From Chromohalobacter moromii (lineage in GTDB: Bacteria; Pseudomonadota; Gammaproteobacteria; Pseudomonadales; Halomonadaceae): a stretch of DNA of 64,000 nucleotides. This document shows positions 21,347 to 29,557 of this stretch, piece by piece. The stretch is taken from positions 124,001-188,000 of the forward strand of contig NZ_JAHXDI010000002.1 of the NCBI RefSeq assembly GCF_023091865.1, read 5' to 3'. A model generated the notes under the pieces. The model worked only from the letters and a program-made list of their open reading frames with translations. It was not told the DNA's origin and made no database searches. Each line of letters starts with the position of its first letter. Positions within the stretch are counted from its first letter, which is position 1. The translations under genes and the position numbers were made by a program.

Positions 21347-21994
21347 ATGTCCGACTCGACGAATCGCAAGGCCAGGTCGCGCGAGCGAATCCTTAAATCG
21401 GCCGTCGAACTGTTCAGCCGCCAAGGCTTCGAGAAGGTCTCCATCGGCCAGATCATGAAACTGGCCAAGATGACCCACGGCGCCTTCTATGCCCACTTCG
21501 CCTCCAAGGAAGCGCTGTACCACGCCTCGGTGCGAGACACCCTGGAAAGCAGCCGCGCGGCCAGGCTGGTCAAGGGGCCGCTTTCGGTGAAGCACCTCAC
21601 GGAACTGGTCTCCAATTGCTGGAATCTCCAGGAGCTGGAACGCAAGCACCAACCCGGGCCGGAGACCGTGCTGTTCAACGAGATCGGCAACGAGAACGCC
21701 GAGATCCGCACGCTCTTCGAAGCCTCCTATCTGCGCATGAAGAAGATGCTGGAAACCCGCCTCATCGCTCTCAGCCGCCTCAAAAAACTCCCCTTCGAAC
21801 CCGACCGCGACGTCATCGCCGACAAGTCCCGCGTCATTCTTGCCTCCCTGGTGGGCGCCGTCGCCCTCGCCAAGAGCCTGCCCGGCGAGCAAGAGCGTCA
21901 GCACATCCTCGAAGCCGCCCAGCGCAACATCCTGCAGATGCTCGGCGTTGACGAAAGCGAACTGGAAAACATGCTGGGCGACGCTAGCCAGTAG
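21347..21994 (+). CDS. TetR-family transcriptional regulator
   Basis: 215 residues. The N-terminal helix-turn-helix is clear (RERILKSAVELFSRQGFEKV, then IGQIMKLAKMTHGAFYAHF and SKEALY). The rest is an all-helical ligand and dimer domain of unknown specificity. It starts at ATG 21347 with GTGAGG upstream and faces the KAS II gene, which it probably controls together with itself. Many such regulators sense acyl-CoA or long-chain lipids, which would fit, but that is inference. It is the last backbone gene before the integron island. Confidence 0.88.
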   Translation: MSDSTNRKARSRERILKSAVELFSRQGFEKVSIGQIMKLAKMTHGAFYAHFASKEALYHASVRDTLESSRAARLVKGPLSVKHLTELVSNCWNLQELERKHQPGPETVLFNEIGNENAEIRTLFEASYLRMKKMLETRLIALSRLKKLPFEPDRDVIADKSRVILASLVGAVALAKSLPGEQERQHILEAAQRNILQMLGVDESELENMLGDASQ

Positions 21995-22121: not shown

Positions 22122-22496
22122 CTATCGCATGGATGACAGCCTCTCATCGCCGCATGCACAGGTAGGGGCGGTAGCGTTCCTGAAGGGCCTTGCCCTCATC
22201 CCAATAGGCCCCGCACTCCGGTAAAGCTTCTCCCAGTACATGCCGATAGAGGAAATAAGAGCATCAGGGGGCTGATTCTGCGTGGCCGCGGCCACATGGC
22301 GCTGTACCGCAAGATGCTCCAGAAAAGCCTTCACCTCAGGGCCACCCATGCTGGCGGGGTGACGCAACCCATTGAAACGAATGAAATAACGTATCCAGTA
22401 GCAGTAAGTCTTCACGGTGCGTGGGCTGTAGCGTTTCACCCTCATGATGGCTTTCACGCGATCCATCAGTTTTGGCGGTTGGTTGTGAGTATCCAT
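22122..22496 (-). pseudogene. intI: Integron integrase IntI, inactivated N-terminal fragment
   Basis: From ATG 22496, with GAGGG upstream, the frame reads MDTHNQPPKLMDRVKAIMRV, YSPRTVKTYCYWIRYFIRF and FLEHLAVQRHVAAATQNQ, the SAM-like N-terminal domain of IntI tyrosine recombinases. Near 22252-22256 one T seems lost: in the shifted frame the homology goes on as FLYRHVLGEAL, then stops. From about 22220 the sequence is unrelated to IntI. The catalytic domain with R-H-R-Y is missing (family length ~320, here ~90 recognisable residues). Its position and opposite orientation to the cassettes are those of a normal integron. A LexA-like box lies 15 bases upstream. Confidence 0.88.
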
Positions 22497-22510
22497 GAGC
22501 CCTCGTATTA

Positions 22511-22528
22511 GTGTATTTTTATACAGTA
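22511..22528. promoter_or_regulatory. LexA (SOS) box over the intI promoter
   Basis: Read on the minus strand the site is TACTGTATAAAAATACAC, close to the gammaproteobacterial LexA consensus (CTGT-N8-ACAG, one mismatch). It lies 15-32 bases upstream of the intI start, where the SOS operator sits in active integrons. Confidence 0.7.
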
Positions 22529-22643
22529 TTATTGGATTCAGAAAAACGCGCAAGCACGCGAATCCTGTATAACGCGCCGAATTATGCTTAGCACAATGTA
22601 AAATCAATGAGTTAGGTGCGAAAAGGCGGGCTTGATAAGATTT

Positions 22644-22684
22644 CTTGAACGCGCGCGCTCGTTCAAGTGGCAAAACGAGCGCGC
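22644..22684 (+). promoter_or_regulatory. Two mutually exclusive hairpins in the attI/leader region
   Basis: Hairpin A: CTTGAACG (22644-22651) with CGTTCAAG (22660-22667). Hairpin B: GCGCGCTCGTT (22653-22663) with AACGAGCGCGC (22674-22684). They share bases 22653-22667, so only one can form at a time. They lie just before the insertion point of the first cassette. Confidence 0.6.
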
Positions 22685-22690
22685 TATCTA

Positions 22691-22704
22691 ATACCTGTTA
22701 AAAA
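22691..22704 (+). other. Presumed attI recombination point
   Basis: GTTAAAA at 22697-22703 matches the core GTTRRRY except for the last base and is identical to the first attC right end at 23554. The first cassette would begin at 22698. The flanking attI arms are inferred only from position. Confidence 0.5.
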
Positions 22705-22718
22705 TTCAAGGAGGAGTC

Positions 22719-23486
22719 TTGGAGCTTCTTAAAAAGGTTCTTGCCTTTGATGTCTTTCCTTTTCTCTGCAGATTAGCGGCAGTATTTTTCTTTCTGCTCG
22801 CTGTCTACGGAATAGGAGTGCCACCGAGGAATAACATAGACTCCCCTTCGTTCATATTGTTGGTCTTTTCTCTGTTCTTCTTGCTGCTTCCCGTTGCCAA
22901 AAAGATCAGCATTGGAAAGCTCCTCACCTTCGAACGTGAAATTGGAAAGGTGAAAGAGGATGTGACTGAATTTAAGGCTGAAACTCGTGAGTTCCTCAAT
23001 GTTTACAGCAGCATGATTACTGCCATATCGAATACCGTAAACCAAACTGTAAACGTACATCTTCCTGGACAGGCAGAAGCGCAAGAAGCAAAGGAAGAAC
23101 TTAAATCGACTCTGGGCGAGGAGAGTGATCAGTTCAACTCAACTGATCAGGTCGAGGAATACCTCACCCAGTCTGGAAACGATATTAACTTCGCCTTGGC
23201 GAGGTTGCGGATGGATTTGGAGAGAAAGCTGCGTGAAATTCTTGGAAAAAGAATATCCACGGGCGATCCACTGAGCATGAAAGGCGGATTTCTCTCAGCA
23301 AGGCAACTATTCAGGCAATTTGTAGATCGTTATCCAAAATACAAGGGTATGCATAGCTCATTCGACTATATCCTTAAGGTCTGCAATGCGGCTATCCATG
23401 GGCAGCAGGTTCTAGACGGACATGGCATGGAAGCGCTGTACATGGGGTTGAAAATGCTCAATGAGTTAGAGCGACTCGAGCAGTGA
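22719..23486 (+). CDS. Integron cassette 1: membrane-anchored protein with HEPN/DUF4145-like C-terminus
   Basis: 255 residues, start TTG at 22719 behind a very strong AGGAGGAG site. Two hydrophobic helices open the protein (about 14-34 and 45-62). A charged coiled-coil-like stretch follows (about 70-95), then a helical C-terminal domain with RLRMDLERKLREIL and NAAIHG. The spacing of these two motifs resembles DUF4145/HEPN-type domains, but I cannot assign a family. The topology suggests a cytoplasmic domain held at the inner membrane. It is the first cassette after attI, so it is best placed to be expressed from any cassette promoter. GC is clearly lower than in the backbone. Function unknown. 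Confidence 0.8.
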   Translation: MELLKKVLAFDVFPFLCRLAAVFFFLLAVYGIGVPPRNNIDSPSFILLVFSLFFLLLPVAKKISIGKLLTFEREIGKVKEDVTEFKAETREFLNVYSSMITAISNTVNQTVNVHLPGQAEAQEAKEELKSTLGEESDQFNSTDQVEEYLTQSGNDINFALARLRMDLERKLREILGKRISTGDPLSMKGGFLSARQLFRQFVDRYPKYKGMHSSFDYILKVCNAAIHGQQVLDGHGMEALYMGLKMLNELERLEQ

Positions 23487-23487
23487 A

Positions 23488-23561
23488 TTTTTAACAAATG
23501 GGTCAAGCCGACCGGTACTCCGCTGCGCTCCGTCCCGGCGGCTTACCCACGGCGTTAAAAA
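23488..23561 (+). repeat. attC site 1
   Basis: Outer arms TTTTTAAC (23488-23495) and GTTAAAAA (23554-23561) are perfect complements. Inner arms GGGT-AAGCCG-CCGG and CCGG-CGGCTT-ACCC also pair, with an unpaired C on the left side, the extrahelical base expected of attC. The recombination point is after G23554. Confidence 0.88.
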
Positions 23562-23573
23562 TAGGGGACTCGC

Positions 23574-24245
23574 GTGGCAGACTATATAAATAAGAACATT
23601 CTTGCTCAGGCCTATCTGCACATCGAGCCCGAGGATATTGAAAGCATCGATTTGGATGCTGTATCTGAGCACCTGAATGAATTTCTAAGAAGTCGAACCG
23701 ATTTCTTTTTCACTTCCTCAGCCGACATTTCAGTCGAGTTCGCCGAGGGCTCGATAAAAGTTTATGGGACGGTTCTCGGCACGATCGCGGCAATTTATAG
23801 CGGAATAGCCACTTATCCAAGTTTTAGAGAGGGTGTTCTTCTCCTCTATGAAGATTCTAAGCGGCTGTCCGAGTATATGGTCGCTGAGGGCCTGTTTACA
23901 ACGAATGCTCGCCATCAAAATGTCGTGCGGTTGGAGGCTCGAACAGGCGTCATTGGTTCTCTTCGAAAAGTGGTCGGCCTCATAGATCAGGCAAGAAACA
24001 TGAATGGCGTAAAATCTGCCGATAAAATCGAAGAAAAGCTTGTCGAGGCGGACACGGAACTGCGGCTATTGCTTTCGAATCTCAACTCTGAAGAAGATCT
24101 TCAACTGGTAAAAAACGGATTCAAAAATCTATTTGAAGAATTGCCGGAGGTTCCCGCGCCTCCACCTCGGAGTTTCAATTCACAGATTGCTATCCGGCGA
24201 TATCAGGTTGCACGAAACCAAGCGGTCCAAACTTGTACATTATGA
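23574..24245 (+). CDS. Integron cassette 2: protein of unknown function
   Basis: 223 residues, start GTG at 23574 with AGGGGA five bases before. No family recognised. A moderately hydrophobic stretch (KVYGTVLGTIAAIYSGIATY, about 62-81) lies between an acidic N-terminal part and a helical, charged C-terminal part with two heptad-like segments. It could be a membrane-touching or oligomerising protein. It has its own attC downstream and no promoter of its own that I can see, typical of a cassette. The composition is AT-rich compared with flanking chromosome. Confidence 0.75.
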   Translation: MADYINKNILAQAYLHIEPEDIESIDLDAVSEHLNEFLRSRTDFFFTSSADISVEFAEGSIKVYGTVLGTIAAIYSGIATYPSFREGVLLLYEDSKRLSEYMVAEGLFTTNARHQNVVRLEARTGVIGSLRKVVGLIDQARNMNGVKSADKIEEKLVEADTELRLLLSNLNSEEDLQLVKNGFKNLFEELPEVPAPPPRSFNSQIAIRRYQVARNQAVQTCTL

Positions 24246-24253
24246 CAATGAAG

Positions 24254-24339
24254 TTTTTAACAAGGCCAGTCACGGCGACGTCTACTCCATTGCGGCTTCG
24301 CCTCCATTCCGTAGCCGCGCATGCTGGCTGGCGTTAGAC
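24254..24339 (+). repeat. attC site 2
   Basis: Left end TTTTTAAC (24254-24261), right core GTTAGAC (24333-24339), a perfect GTTRRRY. Inner complementarity includes GCCAG near 24265 with CTGGC near 24327. It shares the GGCGACG and CATTGCG blocks of the next two sites. Confidence 0.85.
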
Positions 24340-24370
24340 GAGAGCGTTCGTAGGTTAGAGGAGGTACGAG

Positions 24371-24811
24371 TTGAGGATTATCTTATATTGGTTTGTCTCA
24401 ATCGCGGCGCTTTTTGTCGTAATGGTGCTTTATCCATATGTCGCTTTCCGCGTTTTTGATGGCTCTTGGGAAAAGATGGCGTTTCTAGGAGGAGCCTTTG
24501 GTGCTGTCAGCGCTCTATTTTCGTCACTAGCGTTTATAGGCGTTGCAATCTCCCTATTCATTCAAAGGAAAGAGCTGGCGCAGCAGCGCAGATCGGCTGA
24601 GGTTCAGTCAAAACAGAACCTCCTTTCATGCAAAATATCCGCAGCCATATCGAAGCAAGAGATACTTGCTCAGTTCTTGGTCGGAGGTAGAGTGCATCCG
24701 CATTTTAAAATTAGCGATCAACCCGGTGACTACCGAGAAACGCTAGCGAAAAATTTGGCCGAGACCGAAGGGCTCGTCTCAGAAGCAGAGCACTTGCTTA
24801 AAGATGATTAA
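24371..24811 (+). CDS. Integron cassette 3: small two-helix membrane protein
   Basis: 146 residues, start TTG at 24371 with AGGAGGT five bases upstream. Two membrane helices (about 4-26 and 37-64) are followed by QRKELAQQRRSAEVQSKQ, a charged helical stalk, and a short soluble tail. Glycine-rich GGAFGAVSALFSSLAFIGV in the second helix followed by a Q-rich stalk resembles the N-terminal part of putative phage abortive infection (PutAbiC-like) and related membrane proteins, but the catalytic-looking C-terminus of those proteins is absent. That likeness is from memory and weak. Otherwise unknown. Confidence 0.75.
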   Translation: MRIILYWFVSIAALFVVMVLYPYVAFRVFDGSWEKMAFLGGAFGAVSALFSSLAFIGVAISLFIQRKELAQQRRSAEVQSKQNLLSCKISAAISKQEILAQFLVGGRVHPHFKISDQPGDYRETLAKNLAETEGLVSEAEHLLKDD

Positions 24812-24813
24812 AT

Positions 24814-24897
24814 GTCTAACAAGTGCAGGCAAGGCGACGCCCACTACATTGCGCCTTCGGCTTCATTGCGTGGGCGCGCATGCTGCAAGCGTTAATT
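24814..24897 (+). repeat. attC site 3
   Basis: Left end GTCTAAC (24814-24820) fits RYYYAAC exactly; right core GTTAATT at 24891-24897. TGCAG on the left pairs with CTGCA on the right. The body is close to site 4 (AGGCGACG..., ATTGCGCCT, GCGCGC, TGCTGCAAGC). Confidence 0.88.
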
Positions 24898-24949
24898 GAG
24901 TGGGTCGATCGGGCCCTACGTTTAGAATCAAATCACTAATGAGGAACTC

Positions 24950-25987
24950 ATGACGGAAATAGATCATTCAAGGAACGGTGATGGACAGCCAAGCACGGGC
25001 AAACCCGGTACCGTGATGGCCGCGTTGGATAAGAACGACCTGAGGTCGATGTTTCATTTGCTGGTTGGTAAACCTGACTCAACCCAACAAATGTTCAAAC
25101 GCCGGGTTCATGTGAACATAGCAGCTATTCATGACTTACATGGACAGATGGTAGAGAAACTACGCAATCATCGTGTGGAGGGAATGATTGCTACCGTCGA
25201 TGTAAGTTTCGAAGACAAAACATCCTTAGAGTTTGGGACGTGGGCGGAATTTGAGCAACATCGTTGGACAAGTCCAAAAGTCACAAGGGAAGTGCGGTTG
25301 AGGTGGGAGTTTTTGGTAACTGTGGATGGTTATGACGTCCCACAAAGGCACACGGTGACAGTAAAGCTTTCGCCTCATCTCAAACCGATAGATGTGATGC
25401 GCGCAGTACTCTCTAAAGATCCTTCCGAGGCAGACTCCTTTGAGATTGAGAGTGTTCCAATATTTTGCCGAGTAGATTTTGTAAACCATATTCTGAGCAA
25501 GGAGCTTTTAGCACTTGTTGACGAATGGGTTCATAGTTTGCCTCAACCCGCTGTTGAAAATTCGTGGTTTTCTTGGTTTGAAGAACGCGCCAACCCTTTT
25601 TGTGCTCTGATTAGATATTCGGCGCCTTTGCTTACCGCTTTAGCCGCTCTTTTATGCTTGAGTTTGGTGGCCCCCCTGGATGAAAACCCTGAAGCGCCGC
25701 TGACCAAGGGATATTTGGTTATGATCGCCCAGTGGGCATTTATTTCCCTAATAATCCTGTATGTGGTCGACAAAAGCTCCGGATTCATCGCTGGAAAGAC
25801 CTTTGAGTCGATTCAGAAGTACGGTGCTTTTAGAATGTTCAAATTGACAAGCGGAGATGATGAAGGCGAGCAAAAGCTTGCACAACGGAACAAGAAACAA
25901 GTCAGAAATTTTTTGATCAGCTCCGGATTCTCCCTTTTGATAAATATCATTGGTGGTGTCATCGTCTATCTGGGTTTCACCAATTAA
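24950..25987 (+). CDS. Integron cassette 4: membrane protein of unknown function
   Basis: 345 residues, ATG at 24950 with GAGGA five bases upstream. The first ~210 residues are soluble and beta-rich with many charged residues. Three membrane helices follow (about 218-241, 253-273, 321-343), the last almost at the C-terminus. No recognised family or catalytic motif. The long cytoplasmic N-terminal part on a C-terminal membrane anchor would suit a sensor or an effector, but this is only topology. It is the largest cassette and has its own attC. Confidence 0.78.
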   Translation: MTEIDHSRNGDGQPSTGKPGTVMAALDKNDLRSMFHLLVGKPDSTQQMFKRRVHVNIAAIHDLHGQMVEKLRNHRVEGMIATVDVSFEDKTSLEFGTWAEFEQHRWTSPKVTREVRLRWEFLVTVDGYDVPQRHTVTVKLSPHLKPIDVMRAVLSKDPSEADSFEIESVPIFCRVDFVNHILSKELLALVDEWVHSLPQPAVENSWFSWFEERANPFCALIRYSAPLLTALAALLCLSLVAPLDENPEAPLTKGYLVMIAQWAFISLIILYVVDKSSGFIAGKTFESIQKYGAFRMFKLTSGDDEGEQKLAQRNKKQVRNFLISSGFSLLINIIGGVIVYLGFTN

Positions 25988-26065
25988 CAAATGCAGGCAC
26001 GGCGACACCCTTTCCATTGCGCCTCTGGCTCCATTCCAAGGGCGCGCGTGCTGCAAGCGTTATAC
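25982..26065 (+). repeat. attC site 4
   Basis: Left AATTAAC (25982-25988) and right core GTTATAC (26059-26065) frame TGCAGGCACGGCGAC and GCGCGCGTGCTGCAAGC, which pair and closely resemble site 3. The left end overlaps the stop codon of cassette 4. Confidence 0.88.
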
Positions 26066-26068
26066 ACT

Positions 26069-26719
26069 ATGAGTAGAAAAAATCGAGTAGCTCGGCCAAA
26101 AGGCGAGTTATTGAAAGAGTTCAATGAGCAAATACTGCTTCTGACTCATGCTTGCTCAACTTTTGATCAAGGCCTAGAGCCAATAGGTAAGCATATTGCG
26201 TTGAGTCTTCGGTTGCTCCTTCATCATCACGGGCAGTCCCAAGCGCTCATGCAGCAGCTCAATTTACGTGCGAAGCGATTCATGGATACCGCACATGATT
26301 TAAACCCGCGCAATCTTATGACCGATTGTCCGCTAACTTTGATGCGAGTCGGGGGTGGAAGCAAATATTTGGCTTTATGCCAAGGCGGCGGAGGGCCGCG
26401 TGGGTATCGATGGATCAAGTTCGAGGATTGGTGGAATAACAGCGTTGTGAAGGACGAGACGGGGCGTTTCTTTAATCGGCGCGAACTTATATTAAATGTC
26501 GCAAATACCGACGGCGGGGGTCATGTCGATCCAACTCTAGACGAAGCATACCTAGATCTTTCTCGAAATAATTCGCTAGGTTGGGTGATATCTGAAGGGG
26601 ACGTACAAAGACCTTTCCCACCGCCCGTCATGGCATGTATACGGCAGATTGCTCATGAAACACTTGAAACTATAAAAGCTAAAGCTGATGCCTCGGTAGT
26701 CTGCGAATATGAAGTATAA
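26069..26719 (+). CDS. Integron cassette 5: cytoplasmic protein of unknown function
   Basis: 216 residues from ATG 26069, only nine bases inside the cassette, with no clear ribosome site; translation may depend on the preceding cassette. No signal peptide or membrane helix. Distinct features are YLALCQGGGGPRGYRWIKFE, FNRRELILNVANTDGGGHVD and a run of aromatic and acidic residues. I believe similar hypothetical proteins occur in other mobile regions, but no function is known to me. The stop overlaps a degenerate left attC end (GTATAAC at 26714). Confidence 0.72.
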   Translation: MSRKNRVARPKGELLKEFNEQILLLTHACSTFDQGLEPIGKHIALSLRLLLHHHGQSQALMQQLNLRAKRFMDTAHDLNPRNLMTDCPLTLMRVGGGSKYLALCQGGGGPRGYRWIKFEDWWNNSVVKDETGRFFNRRELILNVANTDGGGHVDPTLDEAYLDLSRNNSLGWVISEGDVQRPFPPPVMACIRQIAHETLETIKAKADASVVCEYEV

Positions 26720-26795
26720 CTAAATGGACTTCCCCCGCTCTAGTGGACACTTCTGCCCTATGATGAGTGCATAGGAGGGAACGTCATCGTTAGGC
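26714..26795 (+). repeat. Degenerate attC 5, possibly interrupted by an insertion-sequence remnant
   Basis: A left end (GTATAAC, TAAATGG) and a perfect right core GTTAGGC (26789-26795) are present, but the body lacks the paired arms of sites 1-4. Instead it reads TGGACTTCCCCCG, then TAGTGGACACTTCTGCCC, which looks like the end of an IS3-family element. Low certainty on the IS part. Confidence 0.4.
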
Positions 26796-26822
26796 TAATC
26801 GGTATTAGAAAAGGATGAAAAA

Positions 26823-27239
26823 TTGAAGAAGGAAGTGCGAGTAGGTGTGGCTGCGGTCATTCTACGCGAAGGGCGTGTTTTACTTGGAGAGCGTATAGGC
26901 TCTCATGGAGCCCATACTTGGGCGACTCCTGGCGGGCACCTTGAATGGGGTGAAAGTATTGAAGAATGTGCACAACGGGAAGCTTTCGAAGAAACAGGCT
27001 TGGTTGTGGGCACTTTTAAAAAGCTAAGTTTCACCAATGATGTCTTTGAACAAGAAGATAAGCATTATGTGACATTGTTCGTTGTAGCTTGTTGCTCTAG
27101 TGGTGAGCCTCAGGTTGCTGAGCCGGATAAATGTAAGCAGTGGAAGTGGTTCGAGCTAGATAAGTTGCCGGAGCCGCTTTTCTTACCCCTGGCTAATTTA
27201 CTGAAAGAGCCCGTAAACCTCAGAGAGTTTGTTGGATAA
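26823..27239 (+). CDS. Integron cassette 6: Nudix hydrolase
   Basis: 138 residues; start TTG at 26823 behind AAGGA (about 26811). The Nudix box is complete: G38, E44, and REAFEETGL at 52-60. Nudix proteins cleave nucleoside diphosphates linked to another group; this one resembles MutT-like NTP pyrophosphohydrolases (GERIGSHGAHTWATPGGHL), but the substrate is not readable. Nudix genes are frequent integron cassettes. The base composition is AT-rich, and a Vibrio-like repeat follows, suggesting capture from a vibrio-type array. Confidence 0.9.
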   Translation: MKKEVRVGVAAVILREGRVLLGERIGSHGAHTWATPGGHLEWGESIEECAQREAFEETGLVVGTFKKLSFTNDVFEQEDKHYVTLFVVACCSSGEPQVAEPDKCKQWKWFELDKLPEPLFLPLANLLKEPVNLREFVG

Positions 27240-27310
27240 GTTGTTTAAGAGATGTTTTCAGTGCGTGGCATTTTTACAATGCGTTGGTTCGCGTGCTTAA
27301 GTTAATTTGC
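27240..27310 (+). repeat. Half attC resembling a Vibrio cassette repeat (VCR)
   Basis: Directly after the Nudix stop codon the sequence has TTTAAGAG, GCGTGGCATTTTTAC, GCGTTGGTT and TTAAGTT, in the order found in the left half of Vibrio superintegron repeats. A matching right half with GTTRRRY is not visible before the LysE gene. Likeness is judged from memory of VCRs. Confidence 0.5.
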
Positions 27311-27374
27311 ATCGTTTTTACTGTTGTATTGCTTGTTCTCTTGGTAATCATTTGATTAAAAGTGATAATCAATC

Positions 27375-27563
27375 ATGACCTTGTCGACAATCCTTTTGTT
27401 TATACCAGCGAGCTTTGCTTTAAATATGTCTCCTGGCCCGAATAACCTTCTTTCAATGGCGAATGCCAAACGTTATGGGGTTAAGGTGGCCTACTGTGCT
27501 GGCATTGGTCGGCTTGTTGCTTTTGTGGGTATGATTACTCTTGCAGCTCCTGGCTCGCCGTGA
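27375..27563 (+). pseudogene. LysE-family exporter, N-terminal fragment
   Basis: Starts as a normal LysE/RhtB translocator (ATG 27375; PASFALNMSPGPNNLLSMAN, the conserved first loop) and continues to GMITLAA, then runs out of homology into PGSP and a stop after 62 residues. The family needs ~200 residues and five to six helices, so this cannot be functional. The break is probably where a cassette junction or deletion joined it to the downstream repeat-like sequence. Confidence 0.8.
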
Positions 27564-27690
27564 GTGAACACTAGCCAGCCGCGTAAGGCGGACGTCCCGT
27601 CCCTGACGGGTCGCGCTTCGCTTTATAAGGCCACTGGTGCGCTTCGCGATGCCATGCTGGCATCGGAGTTCTCGCGTCACTAGGCGTTGC
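27564..27690 (+). repeat. Palindromic spacer between cassettes, possible atypical attC
   Basis: It holds ACTAGCC near the left and ACTAGGC near the right, and a perfect hairpin GATGCCA-TGC-TGGCATC (27648-27664). GTTGCAT at about 27676 is a poor match to GTTRRRY. Its paired ends suggest a cassette boundary, but the core is not canonical. Confidence 0.4.
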
Positions 27691-27726
27691 ATTGAACAAG
27701 GCGGTGAACGAGGCATCAGGTACCCA

Positions 27727-28275
27727 ATGGACTACGAAGCACAAATCAAAAAATGGATAGAGCAGGACGCAGAACGCATGGAGGCGCTTTCTATAGCCGC
27801 TGACCTGTGCCTGCCGGATTGGTGCCTTGCCGCGGGGTTTGTTCGCAACCTTGCTTGGGACAAGGTGCATGGTTTTTCGGCCGCGACGGCTCTCAACGAT
27901 ATCGACTTGGTCTACTTCGATCCGAAGGATATTAATGAAGCTAGGGATCGGCGTATAGAAGCGAAGCTCAGAAGCTCTTCTGATTTTCCGTGGTCGGTAA
28001 AGAACCAAGCGAGAATGCATGAGCGCAACGTCGATGATCCCTATACGTCAACCACCAATGCCATGAGCTACTGGGTCGAAGTCGAGACAGCCGTCGGCGC
28101 TACACTGGATGCCAGCAGGGAGGTCGTCTTAGTCGCTCCCTTTGGCGTCGAGCCTTTGTTCAATTTCACCATCACCTTGAACCCTAACAGGCCAAAGCCC
28201 GTTGATTTTAGGAAACGTGTAGCAGGGAAAAGGTGGCAGGAAATCTGGCCAAAACTAACGGTGGTAAATGCCTAG
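27727..28275 (+). CDS. Nucleotidyltransferase-like protein (DUF925/NTP_transf_6)
   Basis: 182 residues from ATG 27727. It has the family's LPDWCLAAGFVRNLAWD block (about 29-45) and LNDIDLVYFD (56-65), where the acidic D-x-D pair binds metal in the nucleotidyltransferase fold. The biological substrate of this family is not known. The family is often found in mobile regions and integron cassettes. It appears complete, and its GC is slightly below that of the backbone. No clear attC follows, although GTTATCG occurs at about 28309, and the array seems to end here. Confidence 0.82.
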   Translation: MDYEAQIKKWIEQDAERMEALSIAADLCLPDWCLAAGFVRNLAWDKVHGFSAATALNDIDLVYFDPKDINEARDRRIEAKLRSSSDFPWSVKNQARMHERNVDDPYTSTTNAMSYWVEVETAVGATLDASREVVLVAPFGVEPLFNFTITLNPNRPKPVDFRKRVAGKRWQEIWPKLTVVNA

Positions 28276-28511
28276 CCACATACAGCACCTGACAAGCCGC
28301 CGTGCATAAGCGTTATCGCCCCACATCTTTTCCTCTTTAAGCCAAGGTTGCGCCATGGGCTGTTGAGGCGACAAAAGCCTCCCAATCCCTTCCATCTCAG
28401 CCCACCCGGCAACTCTCCGTTTAGCCCTACTTTTCAGCCACTTGGCTTCACGTTAGCCGAAAGTCGAGCCTCCGCCGAGCGAAAAGATAGTGATTGGGGG
28501 TTGAAAGTCTT

Positions 28512-28530
28512 TATGCGAATCATTTACATT
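28512..28530. promoter_or_regulatory. Possible Fur box upstream of bfd
   Basis: The stretch TATGCGAATCATTTACATT resembles the 19-bp Fur operator (AAT-ATT repeats around a centre), about 30 bases upstream of bfd. bfd is iron-repressed by Fur in many bacteria. Confidence 0.5.
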
Positions 28531-28560
28531 CCCTATCAGAGCGATCAGCGAGGTGATGGA

Positions 28561-28764
28561 ATGTACGTGTGCATATGCCGAGGCGTGACCGACAATGCCA
28601 TTCGCGAGGCCGTTGAAGACGGCGCGCGTAGTTGGAGAGAAGTGCGCGAGCGCACCGAGTGTGCGACTCAGTGCGGCCGCTGTGCCTGCACGGCCAAGGC
28701 CATCACGCGTGATGCCATCACCCAGGAAATGATGCCGAGCGCGGATCTCGCCTACGCCGTCTAG
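28561..28764 (+). CDS. bfd: Bacterioferritin-associated ferredoxin
   Basis: 67 residues from ATG 28561, with GAGGTGATGG just upstream. Bfd docks on bacterioferritin and passes electrons to reduce and release stored iron. The four [2Fe-2S] cysteines are visible: C4 and C6 (CIC) and then C-x3-CGRC; a further cysteine follows in ACTA. Length is normal. It has its own terminator and lies upstream of bfr on the same strand, so the pair is probably regulated oppositely by iron. Confidence 0.93.
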   Translation: MYVCICRGVTDNAIREAVEDGARSWREVRERTECATQCGRCACTAKAITRDAITQEMMPSADLAYAV

Positions 28765-29077
28765 CCGTTGCATCGCTTATAAACGCTTCGCTGTGTACCG
28801 ATCATCGCCAACGCCGCTATCCCATTGGGTAGCGGCGTTTTCGTGTCTGGACTGAGTCATGCTTGTCTCCGCGAGGCGAGAGCGGAGTGGCAATCGTTCT
28901 CGCCTGTTATTTCCAATCCTTCACAAATGCGGCGTTTTCGCGGCAAGATCTTGTCTTAATTCGACTTTTTCGGCGAAATAGTCGATACTCCCTGTATCCC
29001 ATGGCGGTGGCGGCTGGGCCGTGTCTGGCTGGCCATCTCGCCTTAAAACCAAATGAATCTGCAAGGGAGACGTGACG
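28765..29077. other. bfd-bfr intergenic region with terminator and promoter
   Basis: A terminator (AACGCCGCTA 28810-28819, TAGCGGCGTT 28830-28839, then TTC) ends bfd. A second hairpin, AGGCGAGA (28874-28881) with TCTCGCCT (28898-28905), has no T-run. The AT-rich stretch at about 28930-29000 probably holds the bfr promoter. No ORF is convincing. Confidence 0.7.
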
Positions 29078-29557
29078 ATGAAAGGTGATGCCAAGGTCAT
29101 TCAGTACCTCAACACCGCACTGGGCAATGAGCTGGTCGCCATCAACCAGTACTTCTTACACGCCAAGATGTACAAGGACTGGGGGCTGGCTAAGCTTGCC
29201 AAGTGGGAATACGACGAATCCATCGAAGAGATGCGCCATGCCGACGAGCTGATCGAGCGCATCCTGTTCCTCGAGGGCATTCCCAACCTGCAGGATCTGG
29301 GCAAGCTGCACATCGGCGAGAACACCAAGGAAATGCTCGAGTGCGACCTCGCCATCGAGAAGACAGGCTGGCAGGATCTGGTCGACGCCATCGCTTATTC
29401 CGAGGAAGTGCGCGATTACGTCAGCCGTGACCTGTTCCGCCGCATCCTCAACGACGAGGAAGAGCACATCGATACAATCGAGACTGAACTCGGCCTGATC
29501 GACAAGGTGGGAATCCAGAACTACCTGCAGCAGCAGATGAGTGCCGACGACGAGTGA
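29078..29557 (+). CDS. bfr: Bacterioferritin
   Basis: 159 residues, a 24-subunit heme-containing ferritin that oxidises and stores iron. Ferroxidase and heme residues fall exactly where E. coli Bfr has them: E18, Y25, E51, H54 and heme ligand M52, with the second half (E94, E127, H130 region) conserved as [13 protein letters not shown] 29078 is used because AAGGGAG is eight bases upstream; GTG 29072 is too close to it. It follows bfd, the common order. A hairpin terminator follows. Confidence 0.96.

Follow-up and report, generated by a model that had tools for sequence, protein, structure and literature searches.

Integrons are taught as one integrase, one attI site and one array of gene cassettes. 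One attI per integron is also what PMC3607928 describes. At the ilvD locus of Xanthomonas, a conserved home locus, intI is mostly truncated or absent, and clusters of attC sites lacking integron integrases (CALINs) occur at seven other chromosomal loci (PMC12444791). Pseudogenes make up about one third of the intI surveyed in PMC2426708, and more than one fifth of the integron-bearing lineages have several intI. A first and a second attI site are described for the complex class 1 integron of Salmonella genomic island 1 (SGI1; PMC7056807), and attI-like sites and inversions between attI and attI-like sites have been reported (PMC10127599). A survey of halophile integrons names neither Halomonas nor Chromohalobacter in its main text (PMC7923331). 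The present work concerns nucleotides 22122–28310 of a 64,000-nt stretch of Chromohalobacter moromii DNA (the window; position 1 is its first letter). This region is a chromosomal integron with an inactivated integrase, a known kind of system. From the comparison with relatives, we consider it probable that it is the hub of a distributed chromosomal integron and carries that integron's integrase gene; the hub integrase would serve several attI sites, here called docks, in trans. With somewhat less confidence, we favour a family-wide picture for the Halomonadaceae, in which a single integrase would serve two to several scattered docks with fast-changing arrays, and the docks would outlive the integrase and be refilled when a matching integrase enters. 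Dead chromosomal integrons are already known, whereas a genome with attI docks dispersed over several loci and, as a rule, no more than one integrase is, as far as checked, apparently a new setting. In the open-licence literature on Halomonas and Chromohalobacter integrons and multiple attI, and in that on attC-targeting IS3 elements, we recognised no paper in which a single integrase is described alongside attI docks dispersed over several loci.

The likeness to Xanthomonas consists in one conserved home locus, a mostly dead intI and relatively conserved arrays elsewhere without intI (PMC12444791). The excerpted text does not mention attI copies at the Xanthomonas CALINs, whereas here each array is led by the same attI. 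In earlier work cited by that paper, genomes with one and the same intI lesion usually had identical arrays (PMC12444791), while the genomes that share the relic allele here carry different arrays. In SGI1, too, each of the two attI has cassettes of its own, but both lie in one mobile structure (PMC7056807); the docks described here are at separate chromosomal loci that are conserved over the genus. In the DeltaattI-type cassettes of mobile integrons, attI is found away from intI, as here, but attI pieces act as cassette ends inside arrays (PMC12901181), and here whole attI copies lead the arrays. Disabling of intI by frameshift or deletion is shared with the surveyed pseudogenes (PMC2426708); instead of several intI, we usually find at most one intI in a genome, alongside several attI.

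A sequence-only reading of the window had proposed an integron island with a dead integrase. The layout is real: on the minus strand, the N-terminal SAM-like domain of IntI (PF13495, Phage_int_SAM_4, E 2.3e-21; TIGR02249, 68 bits, positions 2–72 of 315) faces the plus-strand cassette open reading frames (ORFs), i.e. the two are divergent, and four attC sites accompany the ORFs (Table 1). These were located with R1, an attC covariance model trained on 16 sites from six other genomes, the window's own genome (G000; other G numbers denote relatives) being excluded. In the training set, 18 of the 23 predicted pairs show two-sided changes. R1 (E ≤ 10, default filters) finds exactly four sites in the 64-kb window, all on the bottom strand, with 56–88 bits and E from 4e-14 to 7e-24, and all four fit the conserved bottom-strand fold with covarying arms that R1 describes. 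A scan by regular expression and folding was replaced by this model; the scan also matched inside tetR and, at the four window sites, on the top strand in two cases and on the bottom strand in all four. The recognised attC part of the array ends near 26720, where the relic of an insertion sequence (IS) end interrupts a presumed fifth attC, and the ORFs beyond 26720 (Nudix, LysE fragment, NTP_transf_6) have no R1 attC match. With four attC sites and only an intI relic nearby, the array resembles a CALIN, defined by at least two attC without a working integrase; it departs from the definition as an attC array without attI, as an attI is present.

This attI lies beside intI and contains the crossover GTT, as found with R2, an attI sequence profile built from 16 sequences. 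In the genus alignment, conservation extends up to ATACCT-GTT, with almost none beyond. Just before the crossover, an 11-bp inverted repeat is paired in 94% of the cells of the 16 attI sequences. Its covariation score is reached by 0 of 500 shuffles, and its pairs with two-sided changes by 131 of 500. The repeat could be a putative pair of binding sites for the integrase or a regulator.

The genome has four arrays that begin with an attI, and the island is one of these, not a lone one. A family-wide DNA search first revealed that the attI region is present a second time in the same genome. R2 then gave 3–7 matches in each of ten genus genomes, 54 in total at E ≤ 0.01, of which 49 enter the dock analyses (five weak or contig-end matches were dropped). 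The strong attIs of the own genome are those of the window, C2:312529–312690, C3:313027–313189 and C4:35221–35377; weak R2 matches are found at C2:613819 (39.6 bits) and C4:42529 (21.4 bits). In this genome 150 of the 2692 candidates from a first look were scored, and the 8 attC matches obtained are all correctly oriented and no more than 15 kb downstream of one of the four strong attIs. Over the ten genomes this holds for 65 of 91 attC matches on the right strand, where uniform placement would give 0.7. Clustering by upstream flanks places locus 1, the tetR locus of the window, in 9 of the 10 genomes, locus 2 in 9, locus 3 in 8 and locus 4 in 7, besides two smaller dock groups and seven single sites. 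For G009, no attI was found at locus 1. G006 is a single contig of 3.595 Mb, and its six attIs are spread over 1.28 Mb. A tblastn search of at most 2.5 kb upstream of each dock found intI or its relics at locus 1 only. The genus thus shows several attI-led arrays with usually at most one intI, with four docks in the own genome.

Matches to this attI are also widespread in the family. R2 at E ≤ 1e-6 matches at least 213 of 275 family genomes, a lower bound because filters were strict and ten candidates were scored per genome. Two or more matches are present in 171 of 212 R2-positive genomes, and IntI exceeds the cut-off in 63 of the 275. In 34 genomes from other families of the order, R2 has no match. 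For genomes with intact intI, we compared 16 near-complete family genomes (1–4 contigs). In 14 of them an attI match lies 58–82 bp from the intI match, and 15 have 1–4 further attI matches elsewhere, the nearest 5.6 kb off; this is in G300, where intI remnants lie beside the second attI (L173). At 20 remote docks from eight intact-intI genomes, 37 of 37 attC are downstream of attI on the right strand, and 18 of the docks have attC. By the 15-kb rule, remote docks account for 26 of the 71 attC of these eight genomes and hubs for 20, which leaves 25 elsewhere. Trans action of the integrase is the explanation that these placements support best; the order of events and the route of turnover are proposed below in the same sense.

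Alternatively, the docks could be what is left of separate integrons that were once complete: the entire platform would have been copied and intI lost except at the hub, with no need for trans action at the outset. We regard this as doubtful, although several observations are in line with it. Of the hub sequence located after intI, 62–92 bp are retained at locus 3; the motif GGCGGTAGCG, likewise placed after intI at the hub, stands ahead of attI at docks. In some family genomes (G021, G184, G204) two or three intI genes exceed the cut-off, and 2 of the 20 remote docks, L173 and L180, retain intI remnants, so that an intI may formerly have been present at some docks. However, in the upstream sequence examined, no intI relic was found at loci 2–4 in the 7–9 genomes that have them, and at the integrase-less loci 2, 3, 4 and 6 of the genus GGCGGTAGCG stands 38–59 bp ahead of attI, with one exception of 110 bp (L162). 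This uniform spacing points to one integrase-less dock ancestor rather than to repeated deletions. With one mismatch allowed and within 1.4 kb, GGCGGTAGCG is found at 45 of 49 genus docks and, in other genera, at 4 of 20, where 6 of the 69 in total would be expected; as a general dock motif it was rejected on the latter count. From shared upstream leaders, the analysis suggests that docks may themselves duplicate.

Two leader types were seen. One, with the inverted CTACCGC/GCGGTAG, occurs at loci 1–3; the other, which shares a long upstream sequence, is that of loci 4 and 6 and of several single docks.

The junctions define where cassettes enter. Among 149 ortholog pairs, which are not independent and some of which are copies within one genome, 143 align through attI, and similarity ends at most 10 bp from GTT in 132 of the 143. 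Similarity runs more than 50 bp past GTT in one aligned pair (G002/G003, locus 3). Since similarity ends at the attI GTT, docks receive cassettes at one exact place, and their contents differ in almost every species. Even between G000 and G001, the nearest relative compared (95–96% identical), the first cassettes differ at both shared docks. The general statement that cassettes are now locked in place could therefore not be upheld: first cassettes differ in nearly every species, and blocks of 97–99% identity are shared by species that are 90–91% identical. Its proviso, unless an integrase acts in trans, describes what we infer to be the normal condition for most docks of the family.

How the contents were exchanged leads to another possible but rather unlikely explanation, according to which cassette differences arose only via homologous recombination between conserved flanks, with no integrase action since the death of intI. 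Some segments fit this. At the hub of G000 and G001 the flanks are 96.4% and 98.6% identical and the relic-attI block only about 83%, and at locus 2 the values are likewise 96% versus 86%. Homologous recombination thus appears to have replaced whole relic-attI blocks. For mobile SGI1 integrons, the exchange of arrays by this route is listed as one of the most frequent changes (PMC7056807), and the window intI is itself a mosaic of two allele classes. Two shared blocks argue against homologous recombination as the sole route. G004 and G008 share a 2490-bp cassette block at 99.0%; its start lies 3 bp ahead of GTT in two different attCs, and its place in the array differs between the two genomes. 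The relic allele is present in both G002 and G008, which have 842 bp in common at 97.2%, with the right end in the attC GTT core and the left edge inside an attC, not at GTT. The background for these blocks is 90–91% species identity over 13–20 kb and 92–94% in the immediate hub flanks. Site-specific exchange and homologous replacement probably both operate. Cassette gain after integrase death appears likely, although the G004 integrase may have been lost only recently; the turnover is not dated relative to the loss of intI.

An ordinary single chromosomal integron with a dead integrase, whose companion arrays are unrelated CALINs at attG-like sites, is very improbable: dead intI with dispersed CALINs are documented in Xanthomonas (PMC12444791), but the other arrays here are led by the same attI (100–138 bits) at positions conserved across species. 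That the dead intI is an assembly error is hardly credible: the frame loss does lie near a short T run (by eye), but about 220 codons are missing and a like junction is present in G001, G002, G006 and G008.

The lesion itself was resolved by aligning the relic to the intact intI of G007 and the nearly intact one of G004, which place the inner edges of the deletion slightly differently. Codons 1 to about 88 and the last 12 or so are kept, a net frame loss lies near 22257, and normal downstream sequence resumes after the last codons. By these alignments and the catalytic motifs of such integrases, no catalytic residue is left in the relic. The frame loss and the missing catalytic domain noted earlier are thus borne out; the alignment indicates, however, that the lesion is an internal deletion and not a simple C-terminal loss. 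In relatives, the deletion ends carry a similar short HVL-coding repeat (by eye), and a repeat-mediated deletion between short direct repeats is therefore likely. A profile search found no protein over the IntI family cut-off anywhere in the own genome, and the functional intI that a complete chromosomal integron requires is absent from the window. In the genus, intI exceeds the cut-off in one of ten genomes (G007). The G004 intI has a frame break, one G003 copy has an internal deletion, and G000, G001, G002, G006 and G008 have a like junction of the large deletion. The relics of G001, G002, G006 and G008 also lack the 5' end, which G000 keeps. The core of the window intI is nearest to the relic class (91–92% to G002, G006 and G008; 88% to G007, 87% to G003a, 83% to G004), and its 5' end and promoter region are present only in the intact class (93% G004, 92% G003a, 83% G007). 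For this mosaic, recombination between two hub copies fits better as a reading. The mosaic as ancestor of the doubly deleted relics was rejected, being opposed by the species identities, in which G000 groups with the relic-class genomes.

Tandem or double hubs were seen in two relatives. In G006 the tetR end, intI relic and attI occur twice in tandem (L053), and G003 has two tetR-hub copies on short contigs (L064/L066), which may be real or a mixed assembly.

Several findings weigh against a hub integrase acting in trans, besides the additional intI genes and dock remnants named above. In the genus, 26 of 91 attC matches lie outside the 15 kb downstream of any detected attI, and three single docks have less than 800 bp of upstream sequence, where intI may still be present. 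A search of 22400–22800 for a Pc promoter that could drive the cassettes, confined to sigma-70, gave no match around attI. Among the intact-intI genomes, G264 has its attI 968 bp from intI and no second one, and G280 has no adjacent attI. The family attI matches of 28–40 bits are less certain, and the attC-less docks L167 and L183 are among the weakest.

Taken with these points, the hub reading suggests the following course. In an ancestor, one IntI, encoded divergently from attI at the hub, would have inserted cassettes at the hub attI, and the same IntI, in trans, would have filled further attI docks elsewhere that had no integrase gene of their own. The hub intI would then have lost its catalytic domain by internal deletion, probably between the HVL-coding repeats, together with its frame, so that all four docks of the own genome would depend on an integrase from outside. 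Cassette contents of the species would have diverged by site-specific exchange when an integrase was present and by homologous replacement of dock segments via conserved flanks.

The window integron is flanked by a tetR-like gene and by bfd-like and bfr-like genes, and the right flank is alignable from about 28310 in G002, G004, G006 and G008. Its features are collected in Table 1. Family, phrog and defence searches assigned no function to the five cassette ORFs of 255, 223, 146, 345 and 216 aa. In the defence-family search of the window cassettes the sole match was the Nudix ORF (PDC-S07, E 3.4e-14). At gathering thresholds, Rfam gave nothing in the window. A plasmid search with the array found no donor plasmid; its 21 records have mainly attC-sized or Nudix-sized matches. 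In the 26823–27300 region, the Nudix gene is 76% identical in DNA to Nudix genes in three Vibrio records, and the stretch after it looks, by eye, like a repeat of the Vibrio type. Away from the hub, cassettes at docks L101 (G000:C4; 4483–5250 and 1941–3299) and L102 (G000:C3; 3707–5014) encode TIR, FRG and SIR2-like domains; of these proteins, those with TIR and SIR2 have matches to defence models of the ThsB and ThsA types.

Table 1. Features of the integron and its neighbours in the window.
Feature	Position	Strand	Remarks
tetR-like gene	21347–21994		named by eye
Dock leader motif GGCGGTAGCG	22167–22176	+	just past 3' end of intI
intI relic	22187–22496	-	keeps codons 1–~88 and ~12 at the end; lacks the catalytic domain; frame loss near 22257
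attI, conserved 165 bp	22535–22699	+	R2 match 22538–22699, 148 bits; crossover GTT 22697–22699
11-bp inverted repeat within attI	22653–22684	+	arms 22653–22663 and 22674–22684
Cassette 1 ORF, 255 aa	22719–23486	+	no family; N-terminus hydrophobic (by eye)
attC 1	23489–23560	- (bottom strand)	55.9 bits, E 4.3e-14
Cassette 2 ORF, 223 aa	23574–24245	+	phrog_31894 (unknown function)
attC 2	24255–24339	-	84.2 bits
Cassette 3 ORF, 146 aa	24371–24811	+	DUF6082
attC 3	24814–24897	-	86.6 bits
Cassette 4 ORF, 345 aa	24950–25987	+	no family
attC 4	25982–26065	-	88.3 bits
Cassette 5 ORF, 216 aa	26069–26719	+	phrog_7805 (unknown function); attC apparently cut by IS end
IS left-end relic	26725–26788	+	kind found inside attC at other docks; right limit by eye
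Nudix hydrolase ORF	26823–27239	+	without R1 attC
LysE-type translocator fragment	27375–27563	+	weak matches
NTP_transf_6 gene, array terminus	27727–28275	+	common to G002 and G006 at 95% DNA identity, same place
Likely remnant of terminal attC, GCGTTATC	28310–28317	+
bfd-like gene	28483–28764		NCBIfam, below cut-off
bfr-like gene	29072–29557		by eye

The IS1111-attC group comprises insertion sequences that target one position in attC. An IS found at the docks is alike in inserting at one attC position and differs by its end, TGGACTTCCCC, and an IS3-like OrfA start (by eye). In 9 of 14 dock contexts (L052:7219, L100:4818(-), L102:2501(-), L139:4352(-), L141:5095(-), L144:2128, L148:7236(-), L153:2737(-) and L155:6049), the distance from the beginning of the attC YAAC box to this IS is exactly 23 bp. 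The window relic at 26725 is outside these nine, with YAAC 8 bp, not 23, ahead. In a genome-wide scan of the end pattern, YAAC lies exactly 23 bp before in 8 of 46 distinct contexts, and the end was therefore not upheld as a universal attC marker. Seven of the eight are among nine contexts in Chromohalobacter (5 of 5), Halomonas (1 of 2) and Marinobacter (1 of 2), some of them the same insertions as in the dock contexts; the eighth, from a metagenome bin with many other contexts, looks like chance. We regard the element as a probable attC-targeting insertion sequence.

Arrays can vary in position, expression context and copy number if several docks are filled by one integrase. To our knowledge, attI is not modelled in general integron searches. 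For this reason, if the distributed arrangement is true, arrays classed as CALINs may be attI-led docks that were missed. A genome with four docks and no integrase would offer a direct test case for the refilling of decayed integrons in trans.

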